Positions 16,301 through 55,608 of a stretch of 64,000 bases of DNA are shown piece by piece. Numbering within the stretch: position 1 is the first letter of the stretch; each line of letters opens with the position of its first letter. A model generated the notes under the pieces. That model did not search any database. It was not told the origin of the DNA and worked only from the letters and a program-made list of their open reading frames with translations. Source of the stretch: Gracilaria domingensis (Eukaryota; Rhodophyta; Florideophyceae; Gracilariales; Gracilariaceae); NCBI GenBank assembly GCA_022539475.1, contig VCMS01000017.1, positions 173,765 to 237,764 on the forward strand, given 5' to 3'. The position numbers and the translations under genes are program-made.

Positions 16301-18377
16301 TCCTGTGGAGTTATTATCCGATAACGGAAAGCAATTCGCATCCCGGTTCTTCCAGGATGTCTGCCGCATCATGGACGTGAAGAACCTCTTCACGATTACT
16401 TACCATCCCCAATGTAATGGGCAAGTTGAACGGTATAACCGTACGATGTTGGCATCTCTCCGTTCCTACGTTGCTGACCACCCAAAAACATGGGACTTAT
16501 ACACCGACGCGCTAACCTTTGCGTATAACACGCAGGTACACAGGACTACTGGTGTTTTCCCATTCGAACTGGTTTTGTCAAGGACACCCCCGCCATTGGC
16601 GTTAGAATCACAAGCTACCTTGGGCAGTTTCCCATCTGTGGGTGATTATCGCCAACAATGGAAAGCCTCGCTAACGAAGTTAGTACCGGCTGCCCGGAAG
16701 TCAATGGCGAAAGCCCAAGCCGCTTACAAGCATGATGTTGATGCTCGTTTGCGAGGACGGACCCCTGAACCCCTTACGGTGGGAAACCATGTCTTCGTAC
16801 GGAAGGAACACTACAACCCTGAAAAGGGCAAACGTCATGAGCTCTCGCCTGTGGCGGATGGACCGTACAAGGTAATCTCGGTTGCACCGGACACTGTCGT
16901 AGTCGAGATCGCTGACGCGCATGAGCGGATCTCCCGCGACCGCGTGGTAATGGCCCCTCCACCCTCGTCTGAGGTTACCCCGTCTGATACAGAACCCGTG
17001 TCTACAGAGTCAACAACACCGGTACCACCGGAAACAAATGTGGTGGCAAGACCCTCCGTCCTGCCCCACCCCCACCGAGGCCTTACAGACCTCCCGATAG
17101 AGTCGGTGCCGCCGACTGTGTCGGACAATGATCGCCACCAGGGCACCCCCGTTTCTGTCCCATCGCTGGGTTCACCTACCCACGATGCGGGACATTCTGT
17201 TACTCCCCACGCCGCTCCATCTAAGGAGGGGGAGGAGGTTATCAGCTCTGCTGAGAGTCATAAGCCGACGTCGCGTCGTGAGGACAACCGTGAAGCACGG
17301 ACTGTACGGAGCTCTCCGGATGTTCCGGCCAGTGCGCGGGTATCGCGTCCGCAACGCACGCTCGCACGCCGCACACACAGCCCCGTTGCCGGGAAGTCTA
17401 CACCGTCGCCGGGTAAGGACACTCACGCAGAAGCGGATTCGGTTAAGTCAACAGAACCTCGTGGCCAACCAGCCGCGCTGGGTCGAACGAAGTCGAAAGA
17501 CGTCGCCGGCATCACGCCGACGCCGTCGGAACGAAGCCCCACTGGGGAGAACGCAGCGACATCGCGGCCCGCCGCGCGACGCGACGTAGAACGACCAGGA
17601 GTCCTGGAAAATCCTGCGGAGCAGGCACGAGCTGAGGAAAAAGAAGTCCCGAGCAACTCGGTAGAACCCGGCGGACCAGCCCTGGGAATGCCGGACACTC
17701 CGAGAAGAGTTCACGTCATGGACGGTACGGCACCAAATATTGGGCGTAAAATATCGGCGCAAGCGCAGGCACGCGTGGAGATCACGAGATCGCAAGCCGC
17801 CGGCGGTGTCGATAACCCCGGTAACCCGGAAGTAACCGTTCAGAACGGAAACTTGAGCAAAGAAAGAAAAGGGCCAACGGCACAGCCGTTGGAGGACACC
17901 TGTAACAGGGAGGCGGTTCTCCCGAGGGAGCTTGACAGCCAACCGTCGCTACAGTCACGTGCACGCACGGTTGTGAAGCCACCCGAGGTGGGACTCTCCG
18001 ACGCAAACGGACAAGGCGAGCACACAGCTACGCCGACGCCGCCGAAGCGGAAGGACCCACGCCGAATGGCGGTACGCAGCGACATCGAAAGCACCTCCCC
18101 TCGGAGGGAACTGGCGACGCAACGCCAGACGCGCGCTGTTACCCCCGTCACGGGAACCGTTCCCCCGCAAGGGTTGTCGACCGATGAAGTAACAATAACA
18201 CGGCAAGGCCGGCAGGTGTACATTCAGGAGTACATTGTCGACCGAATTGTCGGGCATACCTGGGACCAGGAAGGCATCTTGTTATACCGCGTCCGTTGGT
18301 ACGGCTACGACCCAGAGTGGGATACATACGAACCTATCAAGCACCTACCACGCTATGATACTAACAAGCCGCCCTAG
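13329..18377 (+). CDS. pol: G2 Pol: reverse transcriptase, RNase H, integrase, chromodomain
   Basis: Open for about 1680 codons after the TAA at 13326. Reverse transcriptase spans about 14330-14960, with MPFGLTNAPATF and YLDD (14742-14753). RNase H is at about 15180-15540. The integrase HHCC finger is at about 15935-16065, and the catalytic core has VAIDILG (D near 16139), LLSDNG (D near 16319) and GQVERYN (E near 16429). A GPYKVIS block follows. About 400 residues of Pro/Ser/Thr/Arg-rich linker (about 16960-18200) precede a C-terminal chromodomain at about 18226-18362 (EYIVDRIVGHTW; YRVRWYGYDPEWDTYEP). Chromodomains of this group guide integration to marked chromatin. The ORF is complete, but expression as a Gag-Pol fusion is blocked by the upstream TAA. 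The linker is far longer than in typical chromoviruses. Confidence 0.9.
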   Translation, partial: RIRRSMLPDVADANNNPLTTLGTIDLVVRLGTSVVKVDFIVCRSLAAPVILGCDYCDRFVDAIRPRLRRVELDDGSSVPIVRRPLKRSSRKQVPLPAAQAPAPASRESTKLRVAASIRIPPESQMMVSVNSRQHGLRVIQPLTSLYEKCQLAVANCVVQFTPDTPFRILVANLGSTPQYLVKNQVIGSVTPHPLAMLPTKMTVADVLGLVTSEEDVASSKEREGVAIPAASTSTTTVATEKQPTDSEPNPVSGTEERKLTSYDKVDPWKALEELDLGHVPESLRERLRDMLREFTPMWDGSLGEINATEHRIDVLPNTRPVSQPPYRAGPKAREEEQFQVDKMLRAGVIEHAQSPWASPVVLALKADGTWRFCVDYRRLNAVTVRDAYPIPRMDECIDSLGDATVFTALDANWGYWQVPVREEDRDKTAFVCHSGSYRFKRMPFGLTNAPATFQSAIDILLSRFKWQTCLVYLDDIIVFSSNLDDHLTHVRDVMTTLRDAGITLKLRKCEFFTDTVKYLGHIIRPGRLTIEEARVKSLAKAKEPRTQTELSCFLGLVNVYRRFVPNFSDIAAPLNALLRKGQPPKLDPFTPAQAEAFNFLKEAVTSAPILSLPKPGLPFSVNTDSSDYQVGCALFQTTPEGERKPIGYWSRSLNVHERNYSVSEKECLAVVWAISTLRPYLLGVHFTVYTDHSSLRWLMNISDPSGRLMRWRLCLAEFDFDVVYKKGTLNTQADALSRLPTNGETLAVEDDDIPCFFVDDDEPELPEWQLDDWPDDWDDMDADFDELIVAGKTEAIKPLPGNFVPVSPEEMIREQHGDPFCIKVRARLNGGDTLPFEVNDIGYLIRTVESHPQVVVPHSLQTRILHLSHYAKLGGHAGERKLYLTLRRDFYWPAMAVDCYATVRFCADCAKNRVKLRKNSKKVKLFPARVPLEFVAIDILGPLLTTRRGNKFLLVFTDRFSKLVRTVPLKRITAFTVAQAFATHWIFVYGPPVELLSDNGKQFASRFFQDVCRIMDVKNLFTITYHPQCNGQVERYNRTMLASLRSYVADHPKTWDLYTDALTFAYNTQVHRTTGVFPFELVLSRTPPPLALESQATLGSFPSVGDYRQQWKASLTKLVPAARKSMAKAQAAYKHDVDARLRGRTPEPLTVGNHVFVRKEHYNPEKGKRHELSPVADGPYKVISVAPDTVVVEIADAHERISRDRVVMAPPPSSEVTPSDTEPVSTESTTPVPPETNVVARPSVLPHPHRGLTDLPIESVPPTVSDNDRHQGTPVSVPSLGSPTHDAGHSVTPHAAPSKEGEEVISSAESHKPTSRREDNREARTVRSSPDVPASARVSRPQRTLARRTHSPVAGKSTPSPGKDTHAEADSVKSTEPRGQPAALGRTKSKDVAGITPTPSERSPTGENAATSRPAARRDVERPGVLENPAEQARAEEKEVPSNSVEPGGPALGMPDTPRRVHVMDGTAPNIGRKISAQAQARVEITRSQAAGGVDNPGNPEVTVQNGNLSKERKGPTAQPLEDTCNREAVLPRELDSQPSLQSRARTVVKPPEVGLSDANGQGEHTATPTPPKRKDPRRMAVRSDIESTSPRRELATQRQTRAVTPVTGTVPPQGLSTDEVTITRQGRQVYIQEYIVDRIVGHTWDQEGILLYRVRWYGYDPEWDTYEPIKHLPRYDTNKPP

Positions 18378-21599: not shown

Positions 21600-22447
21600 T
21601 TTAGAGCAAAATGCCCTACAGAGGGATGCACTGGGGTGTTTTTCATAGTCGGTTGATCCGTTACCGGCTTCGACACCTCATGTTATGAGAGGTTACTGTA
21701 GTAGTGGCCCAATCTTGGGGTATGCCTAGGAAGGGTAGTGTTCCTGCACACGTGTGCTGAGTTGGCCCGATGCCTGGTGCGCCGTGGCAAGCCGGTTTCA
21801 CACGTGTAGGGTGTTGGCCGGCAGCGCCGGATACTTAGATATTTTTAATCGATATTTTCAAGTGCCGTATATAGGTGGCGGCACTTGCCGCCACTGTACG
21901 GGAAGTAAACCTCAAGGAAGCTTCTGGCTCTGACTTTCTTGCCGCTTGTGAACGGTCTTCGTCCCTAATCAGCCAAGCCACCACAATTCCGGGCTAGTCA
22001 TCCGACCTCCACCACTGAGGAGTTCTAAACCGTCGTTACGGCATCTTTTGTGTTGTTTTATTGTTATCATTTCCGTCATACGGGTCCTATCGCTCTGCCC
22101 TGTTGTACAGGTTTGACCCACATTGTCTGGGAATACTTCTCGATCTCGCGAGTCAGTGCACCGCTGCGCGGCTCGTTGGTTGCCCGTTTTGCTCAACACC
22201 GTTGGTTTGGATATCTCCACTCGCTGTGGCTCGCCGGAACTACCCGGATTATACGCCGATTCTTCCCACCACAACCTCCGGCTGCACGCCCAGGACGGGG
22301 CTGCCCCGATTTACACCCGGCCTGTGTCAGCCCTACCGGAGGGTTCTACCACCGACCCTACCCCTATAGGGAGCGGGGCTCGAACATCCTGTAGGTGCAC
22401 TTTCCGCGACGCGGCTCTTGTTTGCTCACTCGTGGGATTGCACCACA
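21600..22447 (+). repeat. G1 3' LTR
   Basis: 848 bp matching the 5' LTR at 3059-3912. The start reads TTTAGAGC for canonical TGTAGAGC and the end is TTGCACCACA at 22438-22447. It is followed by AAAGG, the right target duplication. The TATA and double-palindrome block is conserved near 21863-21895. Confidence 0.85.
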
Positions 22448-23160: not shown

Positions 23161-24014
23161 TGTGTTACAAACCCACGAATGGGCAAACAAGGGCCGCGTC
23201 GCGGAAAGCGCACAGACAGGGTGTTCGAAACCTGCTCTCTATAGGGGTAGATGCAGCAGTAGACCCCTCTGATAGGGCCAGCGCGATGCCGGGTGTAATT
23301 CCGGGTGGCGCCGATCTGAGCGTGCAGTCAGAGGTGAAGGGGAAGAATCGACGTAGGTATCTGGTTGTTCCAGCGAGCCACAGCGAGTAGAGATATCCAG
23401 CCGAACGGTAGTGAGCAACAGGGGATCAGCAAACGAGCCGCACTGCGGGGCACTGACTCGTGATAAACGGGAATAAGTCTCAAGACTAGTGGGCAAAACA
23501 TCTGTAGAACAGGGTAGAGAAACGAGAGCCGTATGACGGAAATAATAAAAAAGTAACAACAAAAGATGCCGTAAAGACGGTCTAGAACTCCTCAGTCGTA
23601 GAGATCGGATGACTAGCCCGGAATTGCGGCGGCTTGCCCGATTAGGGACGAAGACCGTTCACAAGCGGCAAAGAAGTCAGAGCTAGAAGCCTCCTTGAGG
23701 TTAACATCTCGTACGGTGGCGGCAAGTGCCGCCACCTATATTCGGCACTTGAAAATATCAACGAGAAATATTTAACTATCCGGCGCTGCCGGCCAACATC
23801 CTACACGTGTGGAACCGTGGAAGGCTTGCCACGGCACACCCTGCATCGGGCCAACTCAGCACACGTGTGTAGAAAAACTAACTTTCCTCGGCACACCGCA
23901 AAAGCGAGCTATCAATACAGTAACCTGTCATAACACAAGGTGTCAAAGCCGGTAACGGATCAACAAACTATAAAAAACCTCGATGCATCTCCACAAAGAG
24001 AGTCTTGCTCTACA
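23161..24014 (-). repeat. Solo LTR of the G1 family, inverted
   Basis: 854 bp, reverse complement of the G1 LTR type. Read on the minus strand it starts TGTAGAGCAAG (24014 downwards) and ends GTAACACA (23161). Perfect target duplications ATATG flank it at 23156-23160 and 24015-24019. This copy fixes the exact termini of the family. It is a solo LTR, since no internal sequence adjoins. Confidence 0.9.
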
Positions 24015-34466: not shown

Positions 34467-34650
34467 GATATTGTGGTGACGTATCTTAGGGGGTGACCCG
34501 CCGTCCTTGGGAAACCCCCAAAAAAAAAGATTTTTTTGTCCTGAAACTTCCCAAGACACCCCCTGCAGGACTATTCCAATATCACATCAGGGAGATAAGG
34601 AAAGTGCAGCGTGGAAGCTGCACTTTCCCCCTCCTGCTTCCCAGCCTCAC

Positions 34651-34972
34651 GTTGCACGCGTCGCGTCGCCGAGGCGCGACGGCGCGGAAGCTGGATGTTG
34701 CGCGCGTCGCGCGCCCGGGGCGCGACGGCGCAGAACCTGGATGTTGCGCGCGTCGTGCCGCCGGGGCGCGACGGCGCGGAAGCTGATTGTGGCACACGTC
34801 GCGCCGCAGAGGCGCAACAACAATGAAGCTCAATGATGAGCGCGTCGCCCGCGCTGGCGCGACGGCACGAAAGCTGAATGATGCGTGCGTCGCTCCGCCG
34901 AGGCGCGACGGTGCTGGAACTGAATGCTGCGCGCGTCGTGCCTCTGCGAGTCGCGACGGCGCAGAAACTGAA
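34651..34972. repeat. Seven tandem 46-bp GC-rich units, each an inverted repeat
   Basis: Seven diverged copies of a unit of the form GTTGCGCGCGTCGCGC...GCGCGACGGCGCGGAAGCTGGAT. Each unit holds a CGTCGC arm and a matching GCGACG arm about 10 bases apart, so every unit can fold. The same array is at 43898-44220 in the 3' LTR. Confidence 0.85.
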
Positions 34973-35076
34973 TGGCGAAACAACGCACAGAGAAGTGGAC
35001 GTCATGCGCCGCGCCGTAAGAACCGGTACAATGCCAAACTCAGCTTAATGAAAGAGCAAGAAAGGGTTAGGGAGTA

Positions 35077-35481
35077 TCAATCAGTCGACAACATCGCTTT
35101 GACAGCGGCATGAACGACATGGAGCGCACGCGCGCCGGAGGGAGAGCGCAGCGCCATCATCGAAAGCGCCAGCCTAACGCCAATCCCGCGCACAAATAGT
35201 TCGGGAAGCTCGCTAAGATTTTCCTTCAGCTCATCCATCGACACTCTACGCTTGAAAAGAAAGTCATACAGGTCCTCCTCACACGCGAATAGCTGGGCTT
35301 CGGTACATTCTTCGCCGTCGTCCTCGTCGGCGAGCGCGGCGTCCTCTTCACACTCGATTGTATCTGCGGTTACCTCTTTAGCCTCATGTTCAATAACGCA
35401 TGTCGATTTTGCAACCGGAACGTCAGAACGGTCCGTATCGTCGTCCGTAACAGTAGCTAGCACTTCTTTCGTGGTTGACAT
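35077..35481 (-). CDS. LTR antisense protein, 134 aa (5' LTR copy)
   Basis: Unrecognised. ATG 35481 to the stop at 35077-35079, read against the element. The N-terminal ~60 residues are acidic (TDDDTDRSD; CEEDAALADEDDGEE), the C-terminal ~70 are probably helical (ACEEDLYDFL; ELPELFVRG; LALSMMALRS). The frame can be extended upstream to 35646, but ATG 35481 matches the start of the homologous frame at 937 and gives an identical length. DNA is identical to the 3' LTR copy. Protein conservation against 533-937 with near-saturated synonymous change argues for function. Possible roles are regulation of the element or particle-associated functions; nothing in the sequence decides between them. Confidence 0.7.
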   Translation of the reverse strand: MSTTKEVLATVTDDDTDRSDVPVAKSTCVIEHEAKEVTADTIECEEDAALADEDDGEECTEAQLFACEEDLYDFLFKRRVSMDELKENLSELPELFVRGIGVRLALSMMALRSPSGARALHVVHAAVKAMLSTD

Positions 35482-36613
35482 TGTAACAATGATGGAGAAA
35501 GAAGTCGAAGATGAATTTGGGAGGTCTGACGACGAGGTTAAGAAAGGTCTGTTTTGGCATGTGATATAAGACAAGAGGTAACCGGAAAGACAGCATGTTA
35601 ACAAGTCCACATGGATAATACCAGAAGAAGCGGCAGACGCCCCCACGCCAGATCAGCAATGACCAGTTAGAAATGAACATAACGAAGCGAGTGGAACCAA
35701 TACTACGGTATCATGTGGAAGACGGATATTGCCCGAAGAACTAATTGAGAACCTAAATAGCCACATGAAATCTGGCCAACCACCGACCTACATAATGAAG
35801 AACCGTAGAGTGACATCACTCCCTACTATGGATATGGTGAGAAGTGCTAGGGTATTTGTCAGGAGACGAAAATCAGACTACAACTTAGGGCATGCGCAAC
35901 ATCATAATTGTAGATATAAACCCCCGAGTTCGGGACCTCACCGCCAACTCGACTCGAGCAGACCACTTCCCCCCTTGACGAACCCGCCCATCCTTGCCTC
36001 TCTCGCCTTTCTTCCTCCCTTTCCGTCGTCACCAACCTTCTTTCCTTTGGCAATCCCATCTTCCCTCAGCGCAGTCTGCGCCTCTCTGCCACCAACCTTT
36101 CCCCCTACATTTCCTTATTCCCGGCGGCCCGGTCTCCCGCCGTTCCCTACACAGTCGCCTTGTTCTGCCCTCCATTGGGCTCGTCCCCACATTGCGATCA
36201 TACCTACATCCCCGTTCTCTCGGACGGACGTAAGCAGTGTTACGCATTGCACTGGTTCCATTCCTGTCGCCACCTCGCCTGGTTGTTAGGTTTGTGGTGG
36301 TATCGACGACAGGATCGAACGCTTTAGCCCTGCCCCTTCTATTGTTCCGCCGACAGCCTTGGTGTTTTGGTCTGTTGGCCGCGCATTCTGTTGTTGTGTT
36401 GGCGTTCGGCATCGAACGCCGAACCACGCTCTCGTTTAATTACTCTCCCCGCTTCCTGTTAGCGGAGAGTTTCTACTATCTTGGGGTTATCTTGTCTGCT
36501 CCTGCAGGCATCTGAGCTACGTTAACTTGTCGCCTCTTTTGGGCTGGTACTCTCGAGCATTTATTGTGTCGCTCTCCCTGGGTTTGTCACCACCCGCGCT
36601 GTTTCCCCCAAAA

Positions 36614-37482
36614 ATGGCTCTACATGGTACTCTCGAGGAGGGCCTGGCTCTCCTGATTCTGGTGTGATTTCCTTCGATGGTTCTGCCGCCGACGTAAGGA
36701 AGTTTCTGTTTTACTTCGAGAATGTCGCTACTCCCAACGAAGAGGATAGTGTTCGGGCTATGAAGTTGCTCGGCTATCTTGAGGGTGAAGCTTTTGACTT
36801 CTACTATGACAACTATGCTGTTGATGGCTTTCTTTCGATTGAAGCAAAGGACTATCAGAAGGTGAAGTTCGCTTTGATCGAACGTCTCGGTGCAATCGAG
36901 AAACCGGCGGAGAGGATTCGTCGGGCAGTTTCGGCACGTTTAGATTACGTCGATCTGCTAGAGTCCCTGAAGAAGATGGACTCTTTCTTCGATCAGGCAG
37001 GTTTTAACTCGAAAGCTAAGTTCGGGTTACTACGAAACGCTGTCATGGAGTTTTCAGATCTTGCGCAGTTTGTCATATTCCGTGGAGCAGATGACTATGA
37101 ATCCTTGAAGGCCCTCGTTAAGGACTTTGTTGGCGGAAAGAAAGCTCTTGAATCGTATGGTACCCTCAACGCTTTCCCACCGGCGAAGCATATTCTTCAA
37201 CGTTCTAAGGAACCTGCTCGTACAAGTCTGCTGGAGTCGAAAGTGGATCGGTTGGCTGACCAGATGGCACAGTCTCACCTCCTAGTGAAGAAGACTCAGA
37301 GTGCTGCGACTGCCACCGGACGTCAGGATACGGAAAAAGTTTGTTCATATTGCAGCCAACCCGGTCACTTTGCGGCACGTTGTGAGCCTAATCCACATCG
37401 AGGCACACGGTGTGGTAATTGTGGCAAGTTAGGTCACTTTACAGCTACGTGCTGCAAGAAGAATAACACCGATGTTGTCTGA
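36614..37482 (+). pseudogene. gag: A-element Gag with two CCHC zinc knuckles
   Basis: Nucleocapsid/capsid precursor. The coding frame runs through the primer site (WYSRGG) into ISFDGSAADVRKFLFYFENV, a capsid-like region of about 200 residues. Two C-x2-C-x4-H-x4-C knuckles follow (CSYCSQPGHFAARC from 37342, CGNCGKLGHFTATC from 37411). The start codon is expected to be the ATG in the LTR end. In the 3' LTR that ATG would be in frame, but in this 5' LTR a one-base deletion puts ATG 36614 out of frame. TGA at 37480-37482 ends the frame, which otherwise continues without shift into the protease part. Confidence 0.8.
36625..36642 (+). other. A-element primer binding site, inside the gag reading frame
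   Basis: TGGTACTCTCGAGGAGGG abuts the 5' LTR with no spacer. A similar 12-mer, GGTACTCTCGAG, also occurs inside the LTR near 36544. In the gag frame the site reads WYSRGG. Confidence 0.6.
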
Positions 37483-38886
37483 AAAGTTGCATTTGAAGAT
37501 GTGAAGTCCGAACCAGAGAAAGAGAAGTTCCCGAGTGAGAAACGAGGTTTCCAGAACACAGGTGGGAACCAAGTCTCAGTTGTGATTACTGACACTTCAG
37601 ATGACGAAGATCCCGTTACTACCGCAAAAAGAGACTCGGAAGGGGAGCCTCTGCCCAAGCAACCGCGAACTGGCCCTCTCTCAGGGATTTCCCCTGTAAT
37701 GTTTCCCGAATCCCACACCACCAGGACTGCTTCTCAGCAAACCAAAGGAACTCCCAAGAAGTCGACAAGGACCAGGAAGGGCACTGCGAAGAAGTCTAAA
37801 GGGAAGTCCCGGAGAGTGAAGATCCAAGAACACCTTGGGAAATATGGCATTTACGAAGAAGTGGCGAGAGCCCCTTCTGGCATCACTTTCGGTCAATTAG
37901 TGCGCAGTGATGCGGACGAGGCCAAGAAAAACATTCGGCGCATTCTTTCCGGAGGTCTTTCCTCAAGGCGTTTCAGTTACGCTCGTACTCATTCACTCCC
38001 TCAGACTCTCAAAGTAGTGAACGTTACTGTCTATGGCACTAGTTCCCAGGCGCTGCTGGACTCTGGTGCTATCCCTAATCTTATGTCTATTGCGTTATGC
38101 AACCGGTTATCGTTGGAGATGAAACCGTCGAGTAGGAGGATTGTCGTTGCCGACGGAACCAAATCCTTAGTTCGCGGAAGCCTGCACGATGTACCCCTCG
38201 AGTTTGGTTCTCTCCGTGTCCCGTTGGATTTCCTGGTCGTTGAGAAGCCTTCCTTCAATGTGATTGTTGGCTGTCCTGCTCTTGAGTCACTACAAGCCTG
38301 CTTGGACCTGGGTACTCAGCAAGTTTCTATGCAATTTGACGGCGCATCTGTTGCTTTACATCTCGATTACCATCGCCCTGGTGTAGTGTTCGACGAAGAG
38401 AATGAACACACCGACAGTGAGGATTTCGCTTCCGCTTCAGAGCCGTTCTTCTCTGAGAGTTCAGAGAGCGACGACGATGGATACGCGATCGCTTTCTCGA
38501 AGGGCAAAGTTGACACGTCGGTATATGCTTTGAATACTATGAATAAAAAACAAGACTGCTTACAACCGCCCGAAGAGGAATCCGCGAACGAACTGGAGAA
38601 TATAGGTCCTACGAGTCTCGATCAGGAAAGCCCCTCCCCTGCTGATCCTCAGGATTTGAAGGGAGCTATTAGGCAATTGCGCGTGAATGGTGTTGAGCCG
38701 GAACCTGCTATTACTACTCCTCACGCCTCTGGGGAAGCAAATAGAGTATTTGAGAACGACGAAGAAGCGGAGGAAAGCGCAGACGACGACGACTCCGAAG
38801 GCTCTCCATCAGATGAAGAGCATGAACGAGCGATCTCGTTGTCCCAGTCAGGGATGACGTCGTTCTCCTACGAGCCGAAGATGTGA
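37483..38886 (+). pseudogene. A-element protease region and acidic linker
   Basis: Same frame as gag. A Lys/Arg-rich segment (about 37740-37830) precedes an aspartic protease with active site LLDSGA (Asp near 38059) and flap-like sequence downstream (NVIVGCPALESL). A long Asp/Glu/Ser-rich linker follows. The frame ends at 38886, but homology shows that the true continuation switches to the -1 frame near 38830, most simply by a one-base indel in this copy. No canonical slippery heptamer is seen there. Confidence 0.75.
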
Positions 38887-41800
38887 GACGCCAACCTGAT
38901 TATCTTATCTTTCGAGTCTACCGTCGTTATCCTCAGCCAACTGACGGAAACCAACTCCACCCTCACACCTCCGAACTCCCGTACGGAGAAATGGGTGTCC
39001 TAGAGCTGGACAACAGTTCCGAACCAATAGTCCGTTTCGGAGTAGGCTGGCCTGTACCCACACCAACTGATGAAGAACCCTTTGCGGTTCCATCGCGAAG
39101 TGAAGCTCATGAAGACCATGTGATGGTTATAAGTCTTGACAACTGTGACGATGAGGCCGATAACCAATTGAGCGGTTTAGCTGAGCCGAATGACGATCAG
39201 CACCACTCGGTCTATCACGCCGCGAATCCCTCGTCTTTTCAGAGTTCCATGACAGACACTAGCCTTCAACCACCTGACCCTCCCCTTTTGTCATCTGACA
39301 ACGATAGAGGAGCTAAAGGGAGGAACTCTTTAAGGGACGACGAAGAAGATGAAGACTGTGTAGAAGTAGAAGCAGGAGTTCATGAAGCAGAAGTAGAAGT
39401 AGAAGACGAAGTGGTGAATAATGGAAATGAAGATGATCATGAAGAAGATGAAGATGGTTCCTCACCAGAAGAAGTCGAGCTGTCTGGTACCCCTCTCTAC
39501 CGCGAACCTGTCCTCACCATCCCGATTACAGACGAGGTCACTTTGCTACCACCTGAAGAAGGGGAACTTATCAGCGACTTTCTTTTGGTTCGTGTCCAGA
39601 TTCGGTACCCTGTACCCACTCCAGCGCACCCCCCTCACCTTGGCGTGCACAACATGCCTTTTGGTCGTATCGGGCTACTGGAGGAGGATGAGGACGGCCG
39701 TTACGTGATTGCTTTCGAAGAAGAGCTCCCTCAAGAAGGGTTCTCGACGCAGGTCCCCCCACCACCTGTTAGGGAGTTGGAAGATCAACCCAACCCCTCG
39801 CAAACAGAGCGGCGTACAACTGGCTCTGGTAAAGGACATTCTAGTTCACGTGATAGTGAGCCGACGGTTGCGTGTCCCGCTCCTGGGGTCGATTACTCCC
39901 TTTTAGATCCTGTCGCAATTGATGGCAAGGGTCGTACATTGGATCGAAGAGATTACCCTCCTGACACGAGTCGCGAAGAATTCATCCTCAAAAGGCTTTC
40001 AAACTTGCCCAGCGGGGAGCAACAGGAACTACTTCGTGTTTTACTTGACCTTGGTGTGGTCGCCTGGTCTCTGTATGATCTTCGACCTGCAGATGTACCA
40101 GTCATGCATGAATTCTCACTGACGACCCAGACCCCGATACACTCAAGAGTTCGTAGGCTTCCGCCGCGACATGACGAAGTCGTCAAGAAGGAACTTGGCA
40201 AAATGCTTGACGCTGGAATAATCAAACCCTGTACATCGGCATGGTCCTTTCCGATCGTCATTGCCACTAAAAAGGATGGCAAGCCAAGGTTCTGTGTAGA
40301 CTACCGAGCTCTGAACCAAGTTATGAAAGCGGACAGATGGCCCTTACCTCATATTGAACAAATCTTTGATGACTTGGGCGGCTGTTCGTTTTTCACTACG
40401 CTTGACCTCTTCTCCGGATACTGGCAGATCAGAATGTCACCTCGGTGTAAGGAGATGACCACCTTCGTTTGCCGTCAAGGAACCTATCAGTTTGGAGTCA
40501 TGCCGTTCGGCTTGATGAACGCCCGCTCTACATTCCAAAGAATGATGGACTCTAGCCTCAATAAGTATCCGTTTGTAAGGGTCTATCTGGACGACGTGGT
40601 TATCTATTCAAAAACCTTAGAGGATCACGTCGAGTACATCAAGTTAGTACTAAGGACAATTGCCTCCCATGGGTTGAAGCTGAAAATCTCTAAGTGCGAC
40701 TTTGCCCATCCCAAGATTGAACTGCTCGGACATGTTGTCGACAAGAGCGGAGTTGCAGTGGACGTGAAGAAAATAGAGGCCATCAAGGCGGCTCCGATCC
40801 CTAAGACAACCACTGAACTAAGGAGCTTTCTTGGGCTTGCTGGCTACTACCGCCAGTTTATCAAGCACTTTGCCAAACCTTCGGCAGATCTCCATGCAGA
40901 AACGTCCGGAAATCGGAAATTAGTGTTCAACAATGAAATGGTTGAGGCCCTCAAAGACCTGAAGGAGAAGCTAACCAGTCCTCCAGTGTTGGCCTTTCCC
41001 GACTTCAACAATCCGTTTCGGGTCGAAACCGATGTGTCTTCATTTGCGTTGGGCGCCGTTCTCGCTCAGAAGAAATCTGATGGCATGTTTCACCCTATTT
41101 AGTATGCCAGCCGGACTATGACTGCAGCGGAAAGGAACTACGCGGTCTTTGAGCAGGAAGCGCTTGCTGTCATTTTCGCGTTCAAGAAATTTCGACTATA
41201 CCTTCTCGGATCAGAGCCATTTCAATTGATTACAGACCATCAGGCGCTGAAGTATGCGTTTCAGAAGAAGGATGTACATGAGAGATTGGTTAGGTGGCTC
41301 TATTTCCTAGCTGAATACCAGTTTGAGGTTGTGTACCGCTCAGGGGATAAGAATTGCGCTGCTGACTATCTTTCTCGCTACTCCACGATAAGGGGGCATC
41401 ATGCTCCAGAGGTGGCGACTACTGTTTCTTGCCCTACATGCGGAGCTTTCTCAGGCCTCGAACCTTATTATGCAAATATTGGTTGATATTTGAGTGACCT
41501 TCCCATCGATGAGCCCAACTCGAGCCTCAGAGGGGCGATCAAAAGGAATTCCAAGAAGTTCATGGTGTGGAACGGGCAGTTGTATCGGAAAATGGGGTCT
41601 GGGCTACGACTCCTTTCTAACGTCAATGAAAGGCGTAAACTCTTGAAAACATTTCATGACGATGTGGGACACTGGGATGTCAGGGCGACCAGAAGGCACG
41701 TCATTGATCGATTCTGGTGGCCCAATATTCACTCTGATGTCACAACCTACGTCAAGAAGTGTGATGGCTGCCAGTTCATCGGGTCTTTTCTTGCTTACCG

Positions 41801-43670
41801 AGCGGGGCAGCGAGCCCCGCTGACGGATATCTTCCACATGTTTTCAATTGATTTCGCCGGACCCCTCAGGGTGACGAGAAACGGAAACAGATTCCTGCTC
41901 ATTGAGGTCGACCACCTCACGGGATGGCCGATCGCAGTGGCAACTCGAACATCTACTGCAGTCGACGTAGTCAACTTTATTAGAAGGAAGATCGTCTCGC
42001 CCTTCGGCTATCCCCGCACGATTGTCTCCGATAACGCTACCTCCTTGCTCGCGTCAAGTGTCCAAGCTTATCTAATTCGTCATGATATCACTCTCAAACC
42101 GGTGCTCGCATACGCACCTATGTCTAATGGACGCGCAGAAAGAATGGTAGGGACGATCAAGAGGGCGATCGCGAAAACGATTCAAGATCAGAACTCTGAT
42201 TGGGATGAAGTACTCCCGGAGGTTCTCTATGGTTATCGCACTCGAAAAATGGCCGAAGGATATTCTCCATTTCAGCTCATGTATGGAGTACGGCCCCGAA
42301 TGCATCCATTAGATCCTCCTTCCCTGATAGCCACGCCATCACTTGATCATCGTGAGGTGGAACTACAAGCCTCCACTCTTAGGAGGACCACAAGGGTATT
42401 GCAGCAGCCTCACCGTCAAGACGATGAGCGCTGTGGACATCGGTTTGCTGTTGGAGACCAGGTATTGGTAATGCGTGGTGAAGCCCTTAATCCTTCGGTG
42501 AAATGGCCATCATTCAAATCGAGGTTCTATGGACCATGGCACGTCGTTCGAGCTAATCATCCTCGGTACATGTTGGTTTCTCCACACCGACGTATGTCCA
42601 GAAGGGGCATTCACGCGAGACGCTTAAGACCTTACCGTCCTAGACCAAGGCATCTGATCCCTAGAACAGTACGATACGAAAGCAATAATCAGCCCGAAGC
42701 GGCATGCCCGGTCGTGGTACAAGGAGGACCAAATTCAACCAGACCACCTGCTGACTATCTGAGAATAATTGTGGCTGGATGGAGACTCTCTGAATGGCTT
42801 TTCCCGGTCAGCACGAGTACGAACGATCTACAGAAGGTCGCATGGAACCTATTACATGTTTACCTTGGGACTTTCAAACGACATGGACCCTACATAACTG
42901 AGGGTCTTCTTACTAAGCTGGTCTCATTGACAGAAAGGGTGAACCCTTTCATTATACCGCTTGTGGGTCAGCAGTTTGTCTTTTACTACTATCACTTTGA
43001 AGAGGCTCTCTATGGACATCTTCCCCCGCAAAGAACTTACGGAGTAGAAGTGTCAAGCTTCCTGCAGCGGATTGAAGCTGGAGAGGCTTTCGAGATCGAC
43101 CTGGCATATGATCAAGATCGCGGTGACGTACCTCCTCCACTCCAGATTGAAGACACCACACCAATAACGCCGGCTCTTCTTGCAATGCCAATACTTGTTG
43201 ACTACGAAGTCTACAATGAAGACGTGAACTATCTGCAAATGGAAATTGGCGGTCGTAGGCTTGAGGACTGGCTTTCTTCACTTGATTGTGAAGACTGGGA
43301 AAGGCATCGCATCGTGTGGAATTTCTTTCACCTCTGTTTAGGCATTTACCTTATATACGGTCAGTACTTTACCCAGCACTCGCATGTGATGCTTGGTCGG
43401 TTGGCTAGGAGGCTCCATCCGCAAATGAACCGATTGGGCCCAGATGAGATGATCTACTTCATCTATCATTACGTGATCGGAAAGTACGGATACCTACCAC
43501 CTGCAGCTACCCACAAAGAGCAAGGTATGGATTACATCAGACGTATCGAGGCTTTCGAAGAGTTCTCCATTGACTTTAAACCGGATCCCGAGTACCCGGA
43601 ACCACCCTATCCATTTCGGTACACAACGGAAGAGGTATCAAGAGATGGACCTATAGCAACTTCATCATAA
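38826..43670 (+). pseudogene. pol: A-element Pol: linker repeats, RT, RNase H, integrase, C-terminal repeat domain
   Basis: One frame from about 38826 to TAA 43668-43670, broken only by TAG 41100 and TGA 41484. It starts with two copies of a ~75-residue module (38832-39060 and 39500-39740). Reverse transcriptase follows (FCVDYRALNQ; MPFGLMNA; YLDD at 40584-40595), then RNase H (about 41020-41390, containing the TAG where relatives usually have Gln or Ala). The integrase has an HHCC finger (about 41655-41780) and the D,D,E core (FSIDFAG near 41846; IVSDNA near 42030; GRAERMV near 42138). After the usual GPWHVVRA block comes ~320 residues with two copies of an unknown ~120-residue module. No chromodomain is present. 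Confidence 0.88.
42750..43590 (+). other. Duplicated C-terminal Pol domain of unknown function
   Basis: Two tandem copies at 42750-43110 and 43225-43590. Shared landmarks are DYL/NYL followed by RLSEWL/RLEDWL, VAWNLLHVYLG/IVWNFFHLCLG, a ~20-residue helical stretch, FYYYHF/YFIYHY, YGHLPP/YGYLPP, FLQRIEAGEAFEIDL/YIRRIEAFEEFSIDF. Predicted mainly helical. Position after the integrase C-terminal block matches where chromodomains sit in other gypsy elements, so a targeting or chromatin-binding role is one possibility. Confidence 0.75.
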
Positions 43671-43706
43671 GACTACATTCTTGGTCGCCCAAGCGTAGCG
43701 ACCGCT

Positions 43707-43719
43707 GAGTGGGGGAGTA
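43707..43719 (+). other. A-element polypurine tract
   Basis: GAGTGGGGGAGTA directly before the 3' LTR. Confidence 0.75.
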
Positions 43720-43897
43720 TGTGGTGGCGTTTCTTAGGGTGTGACGCGCCGTCCTTGGGACACCCCCAAAAAAAGGATTTTTTTGTCCTGAAACTTCCCA
43801 GGACACCCCCTGCAGGACTATTCCCATATCACATCAGGGAGATAAGGAAAGTGCAGCGTGGAAGCTGCACTTTCCCCCTCCTGCTTCCCAGCCTCAC

Positions 43898-44220
43898 GTT
43901 GCGCGCGTCGCGCCGCCGAGGCGCGACGGCGCGGAAGCTGGATGTTGCGCGCGTCGCGCGCCCGGGGCGCGACGGCGCAGAACCTGGATGTTGCGCGCGT
44001 CGTGCCGCCGGGGCGCGACGGCGCGGAAGCTGATTGTGGCACACGTCGCGCCGCAGAGGTGCGACAACAATGAAGCTCAATGATGAGCGCGTCGCCCGCG
44101 CTGGCGCGACGGCACAGAAGCTGAATGATGCGTGCGTCGCTCCGCCGAGGCGCGACGGCGCTGGAACTGAATGCTGCGCGCGTCGTGCCTCGGCGAGGCG
44201 CGACGGCGCAGAAACTGAAT
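43898..44220. repeat. 46-bp hairpin array, 3' LTR copy
   Basis: Seven units, same phase as 34651-34972, with about nine differences from it. Confidence 0.85.
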
Positions 44221-44323
44221 GGCGAAACAACGCAGAGAGAAGTGGACGTCATGCGCCGCGCCGTAAGAACCAGTACAATGCCAAACTCAGCTTAGTGCAA
44301 GAGCAAGAAAGGGTTAGGGAGTA

Positions 44324-44728
44324 TCAATCAGTCGACAACATCGCTTTGACAGCGGCATGAACGACATGGAGCGCACGCGCGCCGGAGGGAGAGCGCAGCG
44401 CCATCATCGAAAGCGCCAGCCTAACGCCAATCCCGCGCACAAATAGTTCGGGAAGCTCGCTAAGATTTTCCTTCAGCTCATCCATCGACACTCTACGCTT
44501 GAAAAGAAAGTCATACAGGTCCTCCTCACACGCGAATAGCTGGGCTTCGGTACATTCTTCGCCGTCGTCCTCGTCGGCGAGCGCGGCGTCCTCTTCACAC
44601 TCGATTGTATCTGCGGTTACCTCTTTAGCCTCATGTTCAATAACGCATGTCGATTTTGCAACCGGAACGTCAGAACGGTCCGTATCGTCGTCCGTAACAG
44701 TAGCTAGCACTTCTTTCGTGGTTGACAT
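44324..44728 (-). CDS. LTR antisense protein, 134 aa (3' LTR copy)
   Basis: Identical in DNA and protein to 35077-35481. In this copy the gene points from the LTR back into the element, antisense to the end of pol. Antisense transcripts that pass the LTR start would overlap pol. Confidence 0.7.
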   Translation of the reverse strand: MSTTKEVLATVTDDDTDRSDVPVAKSTCVIEHEAKEVTADTIECEEDAALADEDDGEECTEAQLFACEEDLYDFLFKRRVSMDELKENLSELPELFVRGIGVRLALSMMALRSPSGARALHVVHAAVKAMLSTD

Positions 44729-45877
44729 TGTAACAATGATGGAGAAAGAAGTCGAAGATGAATTTGGGAGGTCTGACGACGAGGTTAAGAAAGGTCTGTT
44801 TTGGCATGTGATATAAGACAAGAGGTAACCGGAAAGACAGCATGTTAACAAGTCCACATGGATAATACCAGAAGAAGCGGCAGACGCCCCCACGCCAGAT
44901 CAGCAATGACCAGTTAGAAATGAACATAACGAAGCGAGTGGAACCAATACTACGGTATCATGTGGAAGACGGATATTGCCCGAAGAACTAATTGAGAACC
45001 TAAATAGCCACATGAAATCTGGCCAACCACCGACCTACATAATGAAGAACCGTAGAGTGACATCACTCCCTACTATGGATATGGTGAGAAGTGCTAGGGT
45101 ATTTGTCAGGAGACGAAAATCAGACTACAACTTAGGGCATGCGCAACATCATAATTGTAGATATAAACCCCCGAGTTCGGGACCTCACCGCCAACTCGAC
45201 TCGAGCAGACCACTTCCCCCCTTGACGAACCCGCCCATCCTTGCCTCTCTCGCCTTTCTTCCTCCCTTTCCGTCGTCACCAACCTTCTTTCCTTTGGCAA
45301 TCCCATCTTCCCTCAGCGCAGTCTGCGCCTCTCTGCCACCAACCTTTCCCCCTATATTTCCTTATTCCCGGCGGCCCGGTCTCCCGCCGTTCCCTACACA
45401 GTCGCCTTGTTCTGCCCTCTATTGGGCTCGTCCCCACATTGCGATCATACCTACATCCCCGTTCTCTCGGACGGACGTGGGCAGTGTTACGCATTGCACT
45501 GGTTCCATTCCTGTCGCCACCTCGCCTGGTTGTTAGGTTTGTGGTGGTATCGACGACAGGATCGAACGCTTTAGCCCTGCTCCTTCTATTGTTCCGCCGA
45601 CAGCCTTGGTGTTTTGGTCTGTTGGCCGCAAATTCTGTTGTTGTGTTGGCATTCGGCATCGAACGCCGAACCACGCTCTCGTTTAATTACTCTCCCCGCT
45701 TCCTGTTAGCGGAGAGTTTTTACTATCTTGGGGTTATCTTGTCTGCTCCTGCAGGCATCTGAGCTACGTTAACTTGTCGCCCGTTTTGGGCTGGTACTCT
45801 CGAGCATTTATTGTGTCGCTCTCCCTGGGTTTGTCACCACCCGCGCTGTTTCTCCCAAAAATGGCGACCACAGATAT

Positions 45878-51339: not shown

Positions 51340-54300
51340 TCAGATCTGAGTTGCAGCCAAACGACCACCTATAAGTTTTCTAGCCGTTTGGATATATCTC
51401 TCAAAGCCCCTGTGGTCTTTGTCCTTCACATTTGTCGATTTGAAAGCCTTGCCGACCAAAAGAGTCCACGCATACATGCAAACAAGAACTCCACAATCAG
51501 TTCCGTTTGTAACAGGTTGCTCAACAAGTTGGAACATAATTGCGACATCCCTAGGAGCCAGTTCCTTCCAAGTAAATATCTTCCCGTAGAGCTTGCTGTA
51601 TTTGGCCGACATATGGTTCAAAGTGTCTTTGATCTGTTTCGATACTTTTTTGTTCCCCATAAATCGTGATCGAACATGAAACGGATCTAATATCCTGTAC
51701 GTCTGCGTTTGGATCTCCACGATACATAAAACCCAATGCGACTCATTAACATGCACTGGCCAAAGAATGTAGTCAATGTCATGAAATTGAAAGCCATTTA
51801 ACCACTTTTCGCCCCCTCCTATGCCGTACGGTCTGTCCACCAAGGGAACAGCGAATGTAGAAACATAAAGAAACCTTTTTCCTTCCGTATGAACCGTGGT
51901 CCTCATCATATGTAGAACAAAATCCTCAATGATTTTATCCGTCAGCCACAGTCCATCCTTCAAGGAACGAAAATCAAGTCGAGAGATATTTCTTTCTCCT
52001 CTAACGACAAATATATCTCTCGGATTTGTTCTCTTTTCTTCAGCATTGACAACATCCATAGCGCCGTTGTACGCTTCCAGAAGATCTTGAGGAATGTCTA
52101 ATGACGGCATTGAACTTCTTTCGTTGTTGTCAATAACCCTCCAACGCTTCTTGAGAATATTGGTGACATGCTCTTTGTCACCATCTTCGTAGAGCACTCC
52201 AAATTCCAATTCCCCATTAGAGTTATCAATATACATGATCTCTCCTGGATACCATTCCAAATCAAGTGCCCAAAATAGCTCGACCCTAGCACCAACTTGC
52301 AGTCTGTCCGTAATACCGTCTTCAAAGGTGTTTGGCGTTGCCATCATGTGCCTTCGTTGACTCACTTTACAGCGCAAAGGAATGTTATTTCTGGCCTTCA
52401 TGCAAGCCTTTGACAAGTTCAATTGCTGAGCTGTGGTTGAAGGGCAATCTTTGACAGAAAATCTGACACCATGTCTTTCATCTCGATGCTTCCGTGCCTG
52501 CTTGAGTTCCATAATTGTAGGTAAGCAGCTTTCATAACTCCAATGTGCTTCTCTAAAGTGATCGAACACCACTTTTGATTCTTTTTGAACACCAATATCG
52601 TCACACAAAGGGCACGCGTAGCCTTCAGCAATAATTTTCGCTTCAAACAGAGTAAGGTTTGTTTTGTTATTTCGTAGAGCTAACCGAAGCTTCCGAGATT
52701 GCCTTTTTCTTCTCCGTCGAGCTGCTCTCGTCTTTTGTGACAGAGTAGTATTGCAATCTCGCTTTCTCCAGTCATGTCGTCTTTGTGGGTTACGGACGTT
52801 AGCAACAGAGCTTCCAGTAAAACTGAGTTCGTAAGAGCTCTCTTCGCTACTCTTCTGTGATTGCTTTAGAGTATCATTTCCATTCATCTCCATCAACGGC
52901 GTGGTGTTCTGGAGGGAAGTTCTCGTTGTAGAGCCAGAGTACCCACAGGAATCCTCACTACTATGAATTTCTTCAAGCAATGCCGACAATCGGCGAAGTA
53001 GAGGCGTTTTTCCGAATTCCTGCCCAGAATCATAGTGCTGCAAATTCTTCGTTTCGTTTTCCAGCATGACTCCTAGCTTGTAAACAATAGCACCCGCGGG
53101 AAGCGCACTCTCGGAAAATGTAATATGTTCAGATACTCGTGTGAACACAGCTCGGATAAGGGAGAACGCTTTCTGACTTCCACCGTCGGCTAGTGAAATG
53201 GGAAAGTCGGTCTGTCGAGGCAGAGCAAAACGTTGACGAATTCCGCATTGCAAAAGCCAAATATCCAGCTGTTCGAGTTTCCTTGCATCCCAGTCGTCAA
53301 AGTTGTACTTCCGTCTGTGAGCAATGAGAAATTCTGTCTCGTTCGCTGGAAGCCCAAAGGGTGAAATCCATCGCGGAGACACAGATGTAAGAAACAATAT
53401 GTCAATGAACGAGTGATAACCTTTTTTCTTCATTGTTTCCATAAGTGTCTTTGATTTGTCTAGATAGAGACAGACTGCGAGTAGATGATGGCACGGAAGT
53501 CCCATGCGAACCGTGTACAGACACTCACAGGTTGCAGTGACGTCAGGAGTCTTTCCTTCAGATGGTGTTCGAGGGAGAATAACCCTCAAGTATACGTCCG
53601 TTCGTGACAATGTTCTTTCATTCCCTTCATTTTGGTCAAACGAATATGTTTGAGTTGTTGTACCAGCTATGGAGATAAGTTTGTGCTCATCTTTTTCGCG
53701 GCCTTCTAAACCGCTCGTCGACGGTACATCTGAGTCACTGGTAAACGTCAAACGCAAAGCTTCATTCAACAATCTGGCAATTTCAGTACATGCGTATCTT
53801 GATACTCCTAGCTTTCCAAGAAATGACGCACAATGCTCTCTCAAATGTCCTGGTGCCTCACGTAAAGGCAATACTCTCCATTCAGGGCACGAACTTCTGG
53901 ATTCCTTTCGTGATTGCCGTTCGATTAGTTTCTCGATAGACGATGCATAGTTCTGAAGACTTGTACTGTCCGCAAAGCATCGAACTAGACTGTTCCAACT
54001 TTCCGATCTTTGTGTTGATGATGCCCCGAGTGTAAGACAATCCTTGAAAAATACAGATGCCCAATGATTTCGACGATCCCAGACGTAAAGGTCAAGGTAC
54101 TTCCTGAGTTTCTCTGTCTTCGAACTAGGTGGGAACCACTTGCTCAGCAACTGCTTCCAGAGACGGTTAAGATGAGCTTCAGATATACATTCTCGACAAA
54201 GGGAAAGATCTGCTCTGAAGCCTTGCCATAACGTAGCTCACCCTTTGCTTCTCAAGATTGGGTTCACGCGCTTCTTCACTTGCATATCAAATAGGTGATA

Positions 54301-55608
54301 AATGCACAGCAGATGACGAACGTCTTCATCGTACGGTATAGATCTGAGTGAGAGTGCGATTGCTTCGTCACCGTCGGTAAAGATCACTTCAGGTAGTGGC
54401 TTTTCGAACGCAATGTGCCAGTATCCCAATAGTCTTCTGCAGAATAGACCATTCTCATGAAGAGTAAGACCGAGAAGAACAGCTCTTGATACACCCTCAG
54501 AGTCCACTGCTGTCATTGTCGCAAGCCTGTAGTTGTATCTGGTGGTATTGTGGGTGCTGTCCCAGAAAATGACATCACCACACCGATGGACCAATTCTTT
54601 CGAACCTTTCACAGACCACACGATCGATGAAAGCTCACCTGTTTCTTCATCTTGGTGATGATCTAGAAACTCAACTTTTCCCTCTCGCTTGCGCTGCTGA
54701 AGGTACTTTACAAGATTGTTTGCATCTTCCTCGCCTTCGGAGATCTTCTTGACAACATTACGTAGTGTTTCGTACTCAATCTCACATCGAGGAAACTGAT
54801 CACCTAAGAACCGTTCGAGCTTCATAACAGAACCCTTTCCACCAGGACATGCTCTACGAAATGCTAACAGTGCCGACATGATCTCTTCATTTTCCAGAAC
54901 ATCACGCGAGCGAGAAATTAATTTCTTTCCGGAAGAAATCTTTTTCGGAACGTGGTTTGTATGACTCATATTGATATTACGAATGACGCAAAAGCTATTC
55001 AAATGAAATTGGTCGAGATCAAGACCTGCTTTAGTTCTGTATGATTCACAGTCCTTTTTGATTGAACTGATCACATAGTCGCAAACATTCTGCTGGTAAG
55101 ACATATGGATCGATGTCGTTGTGACTTTGGCCTCACATCCAACTTTCTTCGAACCTCTTTCCCTCATGCCTTTGCTGGATGACTTTCGAGGACCTCCTGA
55201 ATGAGAGCAAGTGGAAAGAAATCTACCCAAATCCTTTCGTTGGCATATCCATGAAGTTCCCAATTCTCGTGCATTGTCTCGAAGTTCACAAAGGGATTTC
55301 AGCAGTGAAGATTGAGCAAGAACCACCGTGCCAGGTTGGAGAATTACTAGTTCAGGAACAGGTGGCGTTCGAACATAATACAGAGTTTCGACAGTCGTCC
55401 CATTTTCCTCAATAGAGAGAAAACCACCACATTCTCCTTTACGGAGCTGGGAACCAATGTTGCAGAGATCCACTTCCTGGGGCACATCATCTAACTGTTC
55501 ATCAGAATCATTAACCGAAAGGGTAGTATCCAGTGAGTCACCAGACTCAAAATTCTCTTCAATTGTATTTTCTGTGTTCGTAAGGTTGTAAATGCAGCTC
55601 CCTGCCAT
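51340..55608 (-). pseudogene. MULE transposase fused to SWIM, zinc-finger, Tudor-like and Ulp1 protease domains, one in-frame TGA
   Basis: Single frame of ~1420 codons from ATG 55608 to the stop at 51340, broken only by TGA 54238-54240 (codon 457). Residues ~100-270: an N-terminal part with a Cys/His-containing FAR1/FLYWCH-like segment (GCEAKVTTTSIHM). ~330-540: the MULE DDE domain, Asp350 (FWDSTHNTTRYN), Asp412 (FTDGDEA), Glu536 (RSESWN). 694-708: SWIM finger CEC...CHH. 999 on: a CPLC...HFREAH zinc finger after a basic stretch. ~1100-1155: a Tudor/agenet-like segment (VELFWALDLEWYPGEI). ~1200-1400: a C48 Ulp1-type cysteine protease with His1291 (SHWVLCIV), Asp1308 (ILDPF) and Cys1372 (TDCGVLV). 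DDE cuts and joins DNA; Ulp1 domains cleave SUMO-like conjugates. Ulp1 in MULEs is known (Kaonashi type); this full fusion I do not recognise. Confidence 0.85.

Follow-up and report, generated by a model that had tools for sequence, protein, structure and literature searches.

A conserved antisense open reading frame inside the LTRs of Ty3/Gypsy-type retrotransposons of the red alga Gracilaria domingensis

Additional open reading frames (ORFs) on the antisense strand are known from LTR retrotransposons, and antisense genes are likewise known from retroviruses (PMC7264820, PMC11963269, PMC10186651). The ORF described here from Gracilaria domingensis resembles the additional antisense ORFs (aORFs) of plant Ty3/Gypsy elements, such as gene23 of maize Grande and those of rice RIRE2 and Silene Retand, which run antisense to gag-pol and are conserved in many copies; for the antisense ORF of Grande, an own promoter and a nuclear protein have been reported (PMC7264820, PMC11963269). 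In the accessible parts of these sources the plant aORFs are placed in the internal region, from pol to the 3' LTR, whereas the Gracilaria ORF lies wholly in U3 and is present in both LTRs (PMC7264820, PMC11963269). With these plant ORFs we group, on the strength of a title only, brtn of the fungal element Boty as the closest system. The TRP28 domain (PF04195), a feature of the Retand type, had no match at E 1 in 17 members of the Gracilaria ORF family. A second likeness exists to HBZ of HTLV-1 and asp of HIV-1, since antisense transcription starts from LTR sequence in those retroviruses, and HBZ localises to the nucleus (PMC10186651, PMC11963269). Unlike HBZ and asp, the Gracilaria ORF is complete within U3. 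The coding parts of the two retroviral genes reach beyond the LTR, and HBZ is defined by a bZIP domain, for which no Pfam match was obtained in the 17 family members.

Other systems share single aspects. The VANDAL elements of Arabidopsis are DNA transposons, and the copy-number factor p22 of yeast Ty1 is a self-limiting fragment of Gag in sense orientation; a comparison of our ORF with the gag frame of its own element returned an hhalign probability of 0.4%, i.e. no similarity. VANC of the VANDALs is a trans-acting, transposon-encoded protein that varies among related elements, and its targets are often tandem repeats (PMC5735166). Unlike VANC, the Gracilaria LTR repeats do not co-segregate with the ORF type, and no similarity between the proteins is shown. 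Diverged U3 regions or 5' LTR halves on a more conserved remainder are found in Tnt1 and in Podospora crapaud, where exchange of U3 (PMC1838419), respectively variation of LTR halves and disparate LTR pairs (PMC10787394), have been described and recombination proposed. In the accessible text of both papers no protein-coding gene is mentioned in the exchanged part, unlike in the Gracilaria U3 (PMC1838419, PMC10787394).

Within the limited open-access literature searched, we found no description of a protein-coding antisense gene lying wholly inside an LTR, and no paper on the G. domingensis genome with its retrotransposons or on Gypsy LTR elements of Gracilaria in assemblies. The ORF is of a known kind, an antisense accessory ORF as in plants and retroviruses, and the first-pass annotation went too far in calling it a new type; what is new within that literature is the location wholly in U3, the resulting duplicate copies and the exchange as a coding cassette. 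LTRs are usually treated as regulatory DNA and often masked ahead of gene annotation. Here, they house a conserved gene family with 150 scored places in a single genome.

The host element and the ORF family

The window, i.e. the whole stretch of 64,000 nucleotides that was analysed, corresponds to contig C17, positions 173765-237764, and contains a Ty3/Gypsy-type LTR retrotransposon at 34472-45872 (Table 1). Protease, reverse transcriptase (RT), RNase H and integrase follow in Ty3/Gypsy order on one strand between direct LTRs (Pfam matches, 37501-43670), terminal inverted bases are present (TGTGGT...ACCACA in the 3' LTR), and a target-site duplication adjoins both flanks. The gag-pol of this copy is broken up into several frames and, as the open frame around RT reaches 2401 codons in related elements compared with 758 in the window, the copy is decayed. 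As the first-pass annotation had claimed, the A-type LTR nevertheless contains a 134-codon antisense ORF; it translates from ATG to stop in the 5' LTR, and its DNA is identical in the second LTR. Its assertion of an equal-length homologue near the left end of the window also holds (134 amino acids, 49% identity to the A-type ORF over 132 aligned codons); the diverged LTR that it placed around this homologue, at 1-2017, is indeed one, but it is cut by the window and its left end is unseen.

Table 1. Features of the host element and of the second LTR, in window positions
Feature	Position	Strand	Basis or remark
F-type LTR, left part beyond window edge	1-2018	+	90% identity to A LTR over 1166-2018
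Antisense ORF, F type, 134 aa (P0002)	533-937	-	Translation and alignment with A-type ORF
Target-site duplication GATAT, left	34467-34471		Same 5 bp at both element ends
5' LTR, 2153 bp, TGTGGT...TACA	34472-36624	+	98.3% identity to 3' LTR
GC-rich 46-bp tandem repeats, between LTR left end and antisense ORF 3' end	34620-34975		Measured partly in 3' LTR copy
LTR-pair stretch without differences, 1056 bp (ORF, both putative promoters, R start)	35052-36107		5'/3' LTR alignment
Antisense ORF, A type, 134 aa (P0001), 5' LTR copy, wholly in U3	35077-35481	-	ATG-to-stop translation
TATA-like TTATATC, putative own promoter, 82-88 nt upstream of antisense ATG	35563-35570	-	Consensus match only
GATATAAAC, putative sense TATA box	35912-35922	+	Consensus match only
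Second antisense frame, R/U5, 127 codons, judged non-coding	36032-36412	-	Internal negative control
Putative primer-binding site TGGTACTCTCGAG	36625-36637	+	Assigned by position only (directly after 5' LTR)
gag frame, zinc-knuckle-like match	36664-37482	+	Pfam, under cut-off
Aspartyl protease region	37501-38886	+	Pfam match
Reverse transcriptase and RNase H start	38883-41102	+	Pfam match
Remainder of RNase H	41118-41486	+	Pfam match
Integrase	41490-43670	+	Pfam match
3' LTR, 2153 bp	43720-45872	+	Element termini
Antisense ORF, 3' LTR copy	44324-44728	-	DNA identical to 5' copy (sequence comparison)
Target-site duplication GATAT, right	45873-45877		Same 5 bp at both element ends

A search of the own genome with the A-type ORF (tblastn; 77.9 Mb, 680 contigs) gave 184 candidates, 150 of which were scored as matches with 100% to 28% identity; H-type and G-type queries led to 148 and 150 places, respectively, which overlap with the A-query set and add further types. 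The analysis set consisted of 85 loci and the left end of the window. From these 86 sequences, 74 full-length frames (54 distinct) were kept and 12 were put aside as broken or partial, and we designated the ORF types A, B, C, D, D2, E, F, G1-G3, H, I and J. An ATG in the usual place is missing in four distinct frames (L004, L008, L054, L061). Frequent stops or frameshifts had been named in the first-pass annotation as a point against the frame; 125 of the 150 scored matches, counted before any selection of copies, are free of stops within the aligned stretch. Outside this genome no relatives were found by sequence and profile searches: about 5.8 billion proteins, searched with a profile of the ORF, yielded one entry, FGB62_109g00 of Gracilaria domingensis itself, and neither Pfam families nor folds were matched at E 0.001.

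The position of the ORF relative to RT was evaluated in 52 of the 57 RT matches with at least 80% identity, five partial ones being omitted. An ORF is found within 6.5 kb of the RT in 31 of the 52, in every case antisense to it, and in 21 of these 31 elements it flanks the RT on both sides at similar distances. The element G000:C326:14301-23844 carries an H3 and an H ORF on its 5' and 3' sides, respectively, at the usual distances from RT, and in G000:C94:2649-19729 three RT copies are spaced exactly 8125 bases apart, which suggests a tandem array of elements that share LTRs.

The remaining 21 RTs have no ORF detectable within 6.5 kb. Three ORF-less LTR regions were fetched, two of which (L086 and L087, from contigs C31 and C8) have an LTR that begins with TGTGGAGG and a shorter U3, where the family ORF is absent and only low-complexity frames within repeats occur; the two elements are close relatives by RT, which is enclosed in open frames of 2378 and 2401 codons. 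Given 21 of 52 RTs lacking a detectable ORF, and the short ORF-less U3 in the two LTRs that could be read, the antisense ORF seems not to be essential. The third region (L088, contig C85) is broken by other sequence, and a 257-aa antisense frame in it, considered as a second U3 gene, is read as part of a nested other transposon, because three of its seven matches sit in open frames of more than 1000 codons. Finally, in 31 of 70 long loci the LTR is not adjoined by internal parts of the window element, which makes these loci possible solo LTRs; flanking duplications, sought in 26 of these 31, were not found with strict ends, and one found with loose ends was judged spurious.

Purifying selection on the ORF

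Between element types, purifying selection acts on the ORF at the level of the protein. The A-type ORF and its F-type homologue in the window differ at 41, 26 and 71% of first, second and third codon positions, and 47 of their 63 identical residues other than Met and Trp are encoded by different codons, in agreement with the hand count of codon changes in the first-pass annotation; the claim that indels preserve the frame is likewise confirmed, the DNA alignment having gaps of 6 and 3 only. The less diverged types A and B differ at 16, 8 and 44% of the three codon positions, with dS 1.18, dN 0.12 and dN/dS 0.10 (Nei-Gojobori, as in all ratios of this kind). Similar ratios were obtained for D-D2 (dS 0.68, dN 0.09, ratio 0.13) and G1-G2 (dS 0.83, dN 0.15, ratio 0.18) as well as for G1-G3 (0.17) and G2-G3 (0.16), dS being saturated in many other type pairs. 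Ratios are higher, with wide intervals, in close pairs (A-A2 0.65, B-C 0.52, F against the window F copy 0.36), and those of the remotest pairs with 23-28% identity (e.g. G1-H 0.75 and E-H 0.54) are near saturation and little informative. In six unsaturated between-type pairs pN/pS amounts to 0.19-0.34. Codon positions, dN/dS and stops hence uphold the earlier view that the protein was kept while synonymous sites approached saturation.

The first-pass annotation had further named a low dN/dS in this frame only as supporting evidence, and this was borne out in part. In nine pairs the ORF frame has a pN/pS of 0.19-0.38 and not a single stop, and four other frames of the same pairs range from 0.89 to 3.04. 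The facing frame, however, with which the ORF has its third positions in common, yields 0.27-0.49 as well, together with two to four stops per pair. One might hence suppose that the DNA or RNA is conserved for other reasons, be it an antisense non-coding RNA, an overlapping sense frame or a cis-element, and that the open frame is a by-product. We regard this as extremely improbable, because the ORF frame is the lower one and stop-free in all nine pairs, residues are kept while third positions are near saturation, and another antisense frame of the same LTR is devoid of a third-position excess. This control frame (36032-36412) was set against nine other LTRs, eight of which matched. Its differences by codon position are, for instance, 18/8/14 (B), 12/18/16 (D), 10/13/16 (E) and 8/12/11 (F), it has single-base indels in B, D, D2 and the ORF-less C31 LTR, and it is interrupted by a stop in C and D2. 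In the ORF, DNA-level gaps are multiples of three in all seven other pairs that have gaps, G1-G3 with gaps of 4 and 5 being the exception. Among the 54 distinct copies, which were picked for open frames, the ORF frame is open in all and the other five frames are stop-free in 0, 0, 0, 1 and 0. A chance open frame is ruled out by the frame controls and the non-coding second antisense frame, and we hold with high confidence that the ORF is a selected protein-coding gene of the element.

Within subfamilies the mean pairwise pN/pS is 0.78 in A, 0.33 in B, 0.82 in C, 0.35 in D, 0.28 in D2, 0.43 in E, 0.36 in F, 0.21 in G1 and 0.78 in G2. The intervals span 1 in A, B, C and G2, including the youngest group, B (0.09-1.57), and lie under 1 in D, D2, E, F and G1. 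The first-pass annotation had named a dN/dS near 1 among young copies as evidence against a gene; this was the wrong test, since inserted copies are expected to decay, and the values are 0.78-0.82 in three of the nine groups and 0.21-0.43 in six, compared with the 0.19-0.34 between types. We read the values as constraint on replicating lineages, with inserted copies probably decaying under relaxed selection. Such decay after insertion is not evident throughout, given the five subfamilies that keep their intervals below 1 and the low value with a wide interval in B.

Exchange of the ORF between elements

The ORF moves between elements by recombination, as a cassette. Across a 277-aa segment of RT, not the whole of pol, dS is as low as 0.07 (A-H), 0.09 (A-B), 0.10 (A-G1) and 0.20 (A-D), while the accompanying ORFs of A-H and A-G1 are only 34% and 42% identical, with dS >2. 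The converse is observed on contigs C27, C74 and C271: the ORFs of the former two have 97-99% DNA identity to that of C271, and at the protein level the RT of C27 shares 83% identity with those of C271 and C74. Type C (L037) is a recombinant in itself, being 93-100% F-like upstream and in about the first 13 codons and 95-100% B-like beyond, so that an F promoter is joined to a B body, with the switch point close to the conserved TDDDTD motif. Furthermore, the nearest relatives of the left repeats, the promoter and R/U5 differ segment by segment. Similar RTs with diverged ORFs, the converse case and the discordant segments together indicate that the ORF recombines independently of its neighbours. 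A VANC-like pairing of the ORF with the adjoining tandem repeats is unsupported, as the segments assort independently; the lack of linkage of the ORF type to tandem repeats, promoter or R/U5 speaks against a tight pairing of protein and site there.

Between its two LTRs the window element has 36 differences, all of them outside 35052-36107 and its counterpart 44299-45354. Similarly, the D-type pair L048/L049 is identical over 1166 bp across the ORF and has about 6% differences to the right; its left repeat region, difficult to align, has more differences. Eleven further LTR pairs were compared, of which the majority are too recent to be informative, and L035/L045 differs inside the ORF. Gene conversion between LTRs is the plain explanation of the identical stretches, and its recurrence over the ORF is suggestive only. 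These stretches could also be taken as a sign that the ORF was captured for protection of the host and is now maintained by host selection acting on LTR copies and no longer by the element, in keeping with the intact ORF in both LTRs of the window element despite a split gag-pol, the identical 1056 bp over it and the five of nine groups whose pN/pS within the subfamily lies below 1. We consider this very unlikely, as A, B, C and G2 have a pN/pS that cannot be told apart from 1, 12 of 86 copies are broken or partial, and the identical stretch is compatible with conversion, likewise in the D-type pair.

Putative expression signals and possible role of the protein

Signals for expression were sought around the ORF. 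In seven of the eight types compared, a putative sense TATA box, GATATAAA, occurs at a distance of 347-470 nt from the start of the ORF. On the antisense strand, 10 of 14 sequences have a loosely TATA-like stretch 64-94 nt ahead of the ATG, while I, G1, G3 and H lack such a match within 130 nt, and AATAAA follows 61-77 nt past the stop in three of 14 (I, the window F copy and G1) in a scan for which less than 150 nt past the stop was available in five; all these calls are consensus matches made without a chance control. They hint at a putative transcription unit of the ORF's own. The protein is acidic (pI 4.3-4.8 in six types). Its best-conserved parts are the N-terminal motif TDDDTD...SDVP...IExEA and LPxxFVRGxGxGL, and the predicted models of A and G1, whose overall confidence is low (mean pLDDT 68.7 and 62.9, respectively), each show an N-terminus of low confidence and, in like order, four helices in the C-terminal part (39-75, 82-90, 94-110 and 114-133 in A). 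A KKQK-type basic stretch at the C-terminus, which we take to be a possible nuclear signal, is restricted to G types.

The ORF is almost certainly a genuine accessory gene of a group of Ty3/Gypsy LTR retrotransposons, pointing away from gag-pol. Our preferred reading, to which as a whole we assign a probability of roughly 0.55, is that it represents an LTR-resident antisense accessory gene whose product is probably a nuclear trans-acting regulator that favours the element. The ORF would be transcribed from its own promoter in U3, and the protein, if the basic stretch of the G types is a guide, would enter the nucleus and act in trans, its acidic N-terminal motif (TDDDTDxSDVP...IExEA) contacting a host factor and the helical C-terminal domain working alongside. 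Most likely it would regulate transcription or silencing of the element and thereby improve its spread; copies would decay once inserted, and ORF-less relatives may use the factor made by other elements. A full element carries two ORF copies, one per LTR, and any solo LTR would retain one. If the ORF is expressed, each insertion, perhaps each solo LTR, would supply a diffusible factor, with a bearing on self-regulation or self-protection of retroelements in red algae.

The main rival reading is self-limitation, where the expression of gag-pol, or its assembly, would be repressed in elements of the same kind by the antisense protein or its RNA, and new ORF variants would spread because they escape repression by resident copies. 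The immunity types of phages offer a parallel, their variants spreading by escape from resident repression. The antisense position would permit interference, and ORFs of 34-42% identity beside close RTs are what is expected if new specificities are favoured. Nevertheless, self-limitation appears unlikely to us: conservation of the N-terminal motif among types is strong, the ORF type is unlinked to the neighbouring cis-segments, ORF-less relatives with long RT frames exist and have not displaced the ORF carriers, and the ORF is unlike the element's own Gag, in contrast to the Gag-derived factor of Ty1. Alternatively, the protein could assist replication (assembly, RNA export, nuclear import or integration targeting) and be antisense by happenstance. 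A small, acidic, predicted-helical protein maintained by selection would suit such a task, and an accessory protein for RNA export has a precedent in Cer1, to judge from the accessible part of the source (PMC10309623). A separate, divergent U3 unit outside gag-pol is better suited to regulation, and a replication accessory is, in our estimation, quite improbable.

The ORF family further shows that a U3 with coding function is able to diversify and to be recombined as a cassette. We tentatively, and with some doubt, go further and propose that the LTR is itself a gene cassette with a protein-coding U3, whose divergent promoter would yield genomic RNA in one direction and a nuclear trans-acting protein in the other, and which would be exchanged like an immunity or specificity region. 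Many diverged ORF types beside closely related pols would follow from such an organization, which would constitute a new architecture for accessory genes of retroelements.

Further features were noted in the window. At 13344-18377 lies a separate long ORF (1677 aa) of gag-pol-like make-up, which comprises RT, RNase H, integrase and a chromodomain, and two adjoining ORFs at 51340-55746 (-) match MULE transposase, SWIM and Ulp1 peptidase and have the look of a Mutator-like transposon that includes a protease domain. Two arms of an inverted repeat, about 19 kb apart and 84-88% complementary, are situated at 3094-3912 and 23161-23981, and a further copy related to them is found at 21638-22447.
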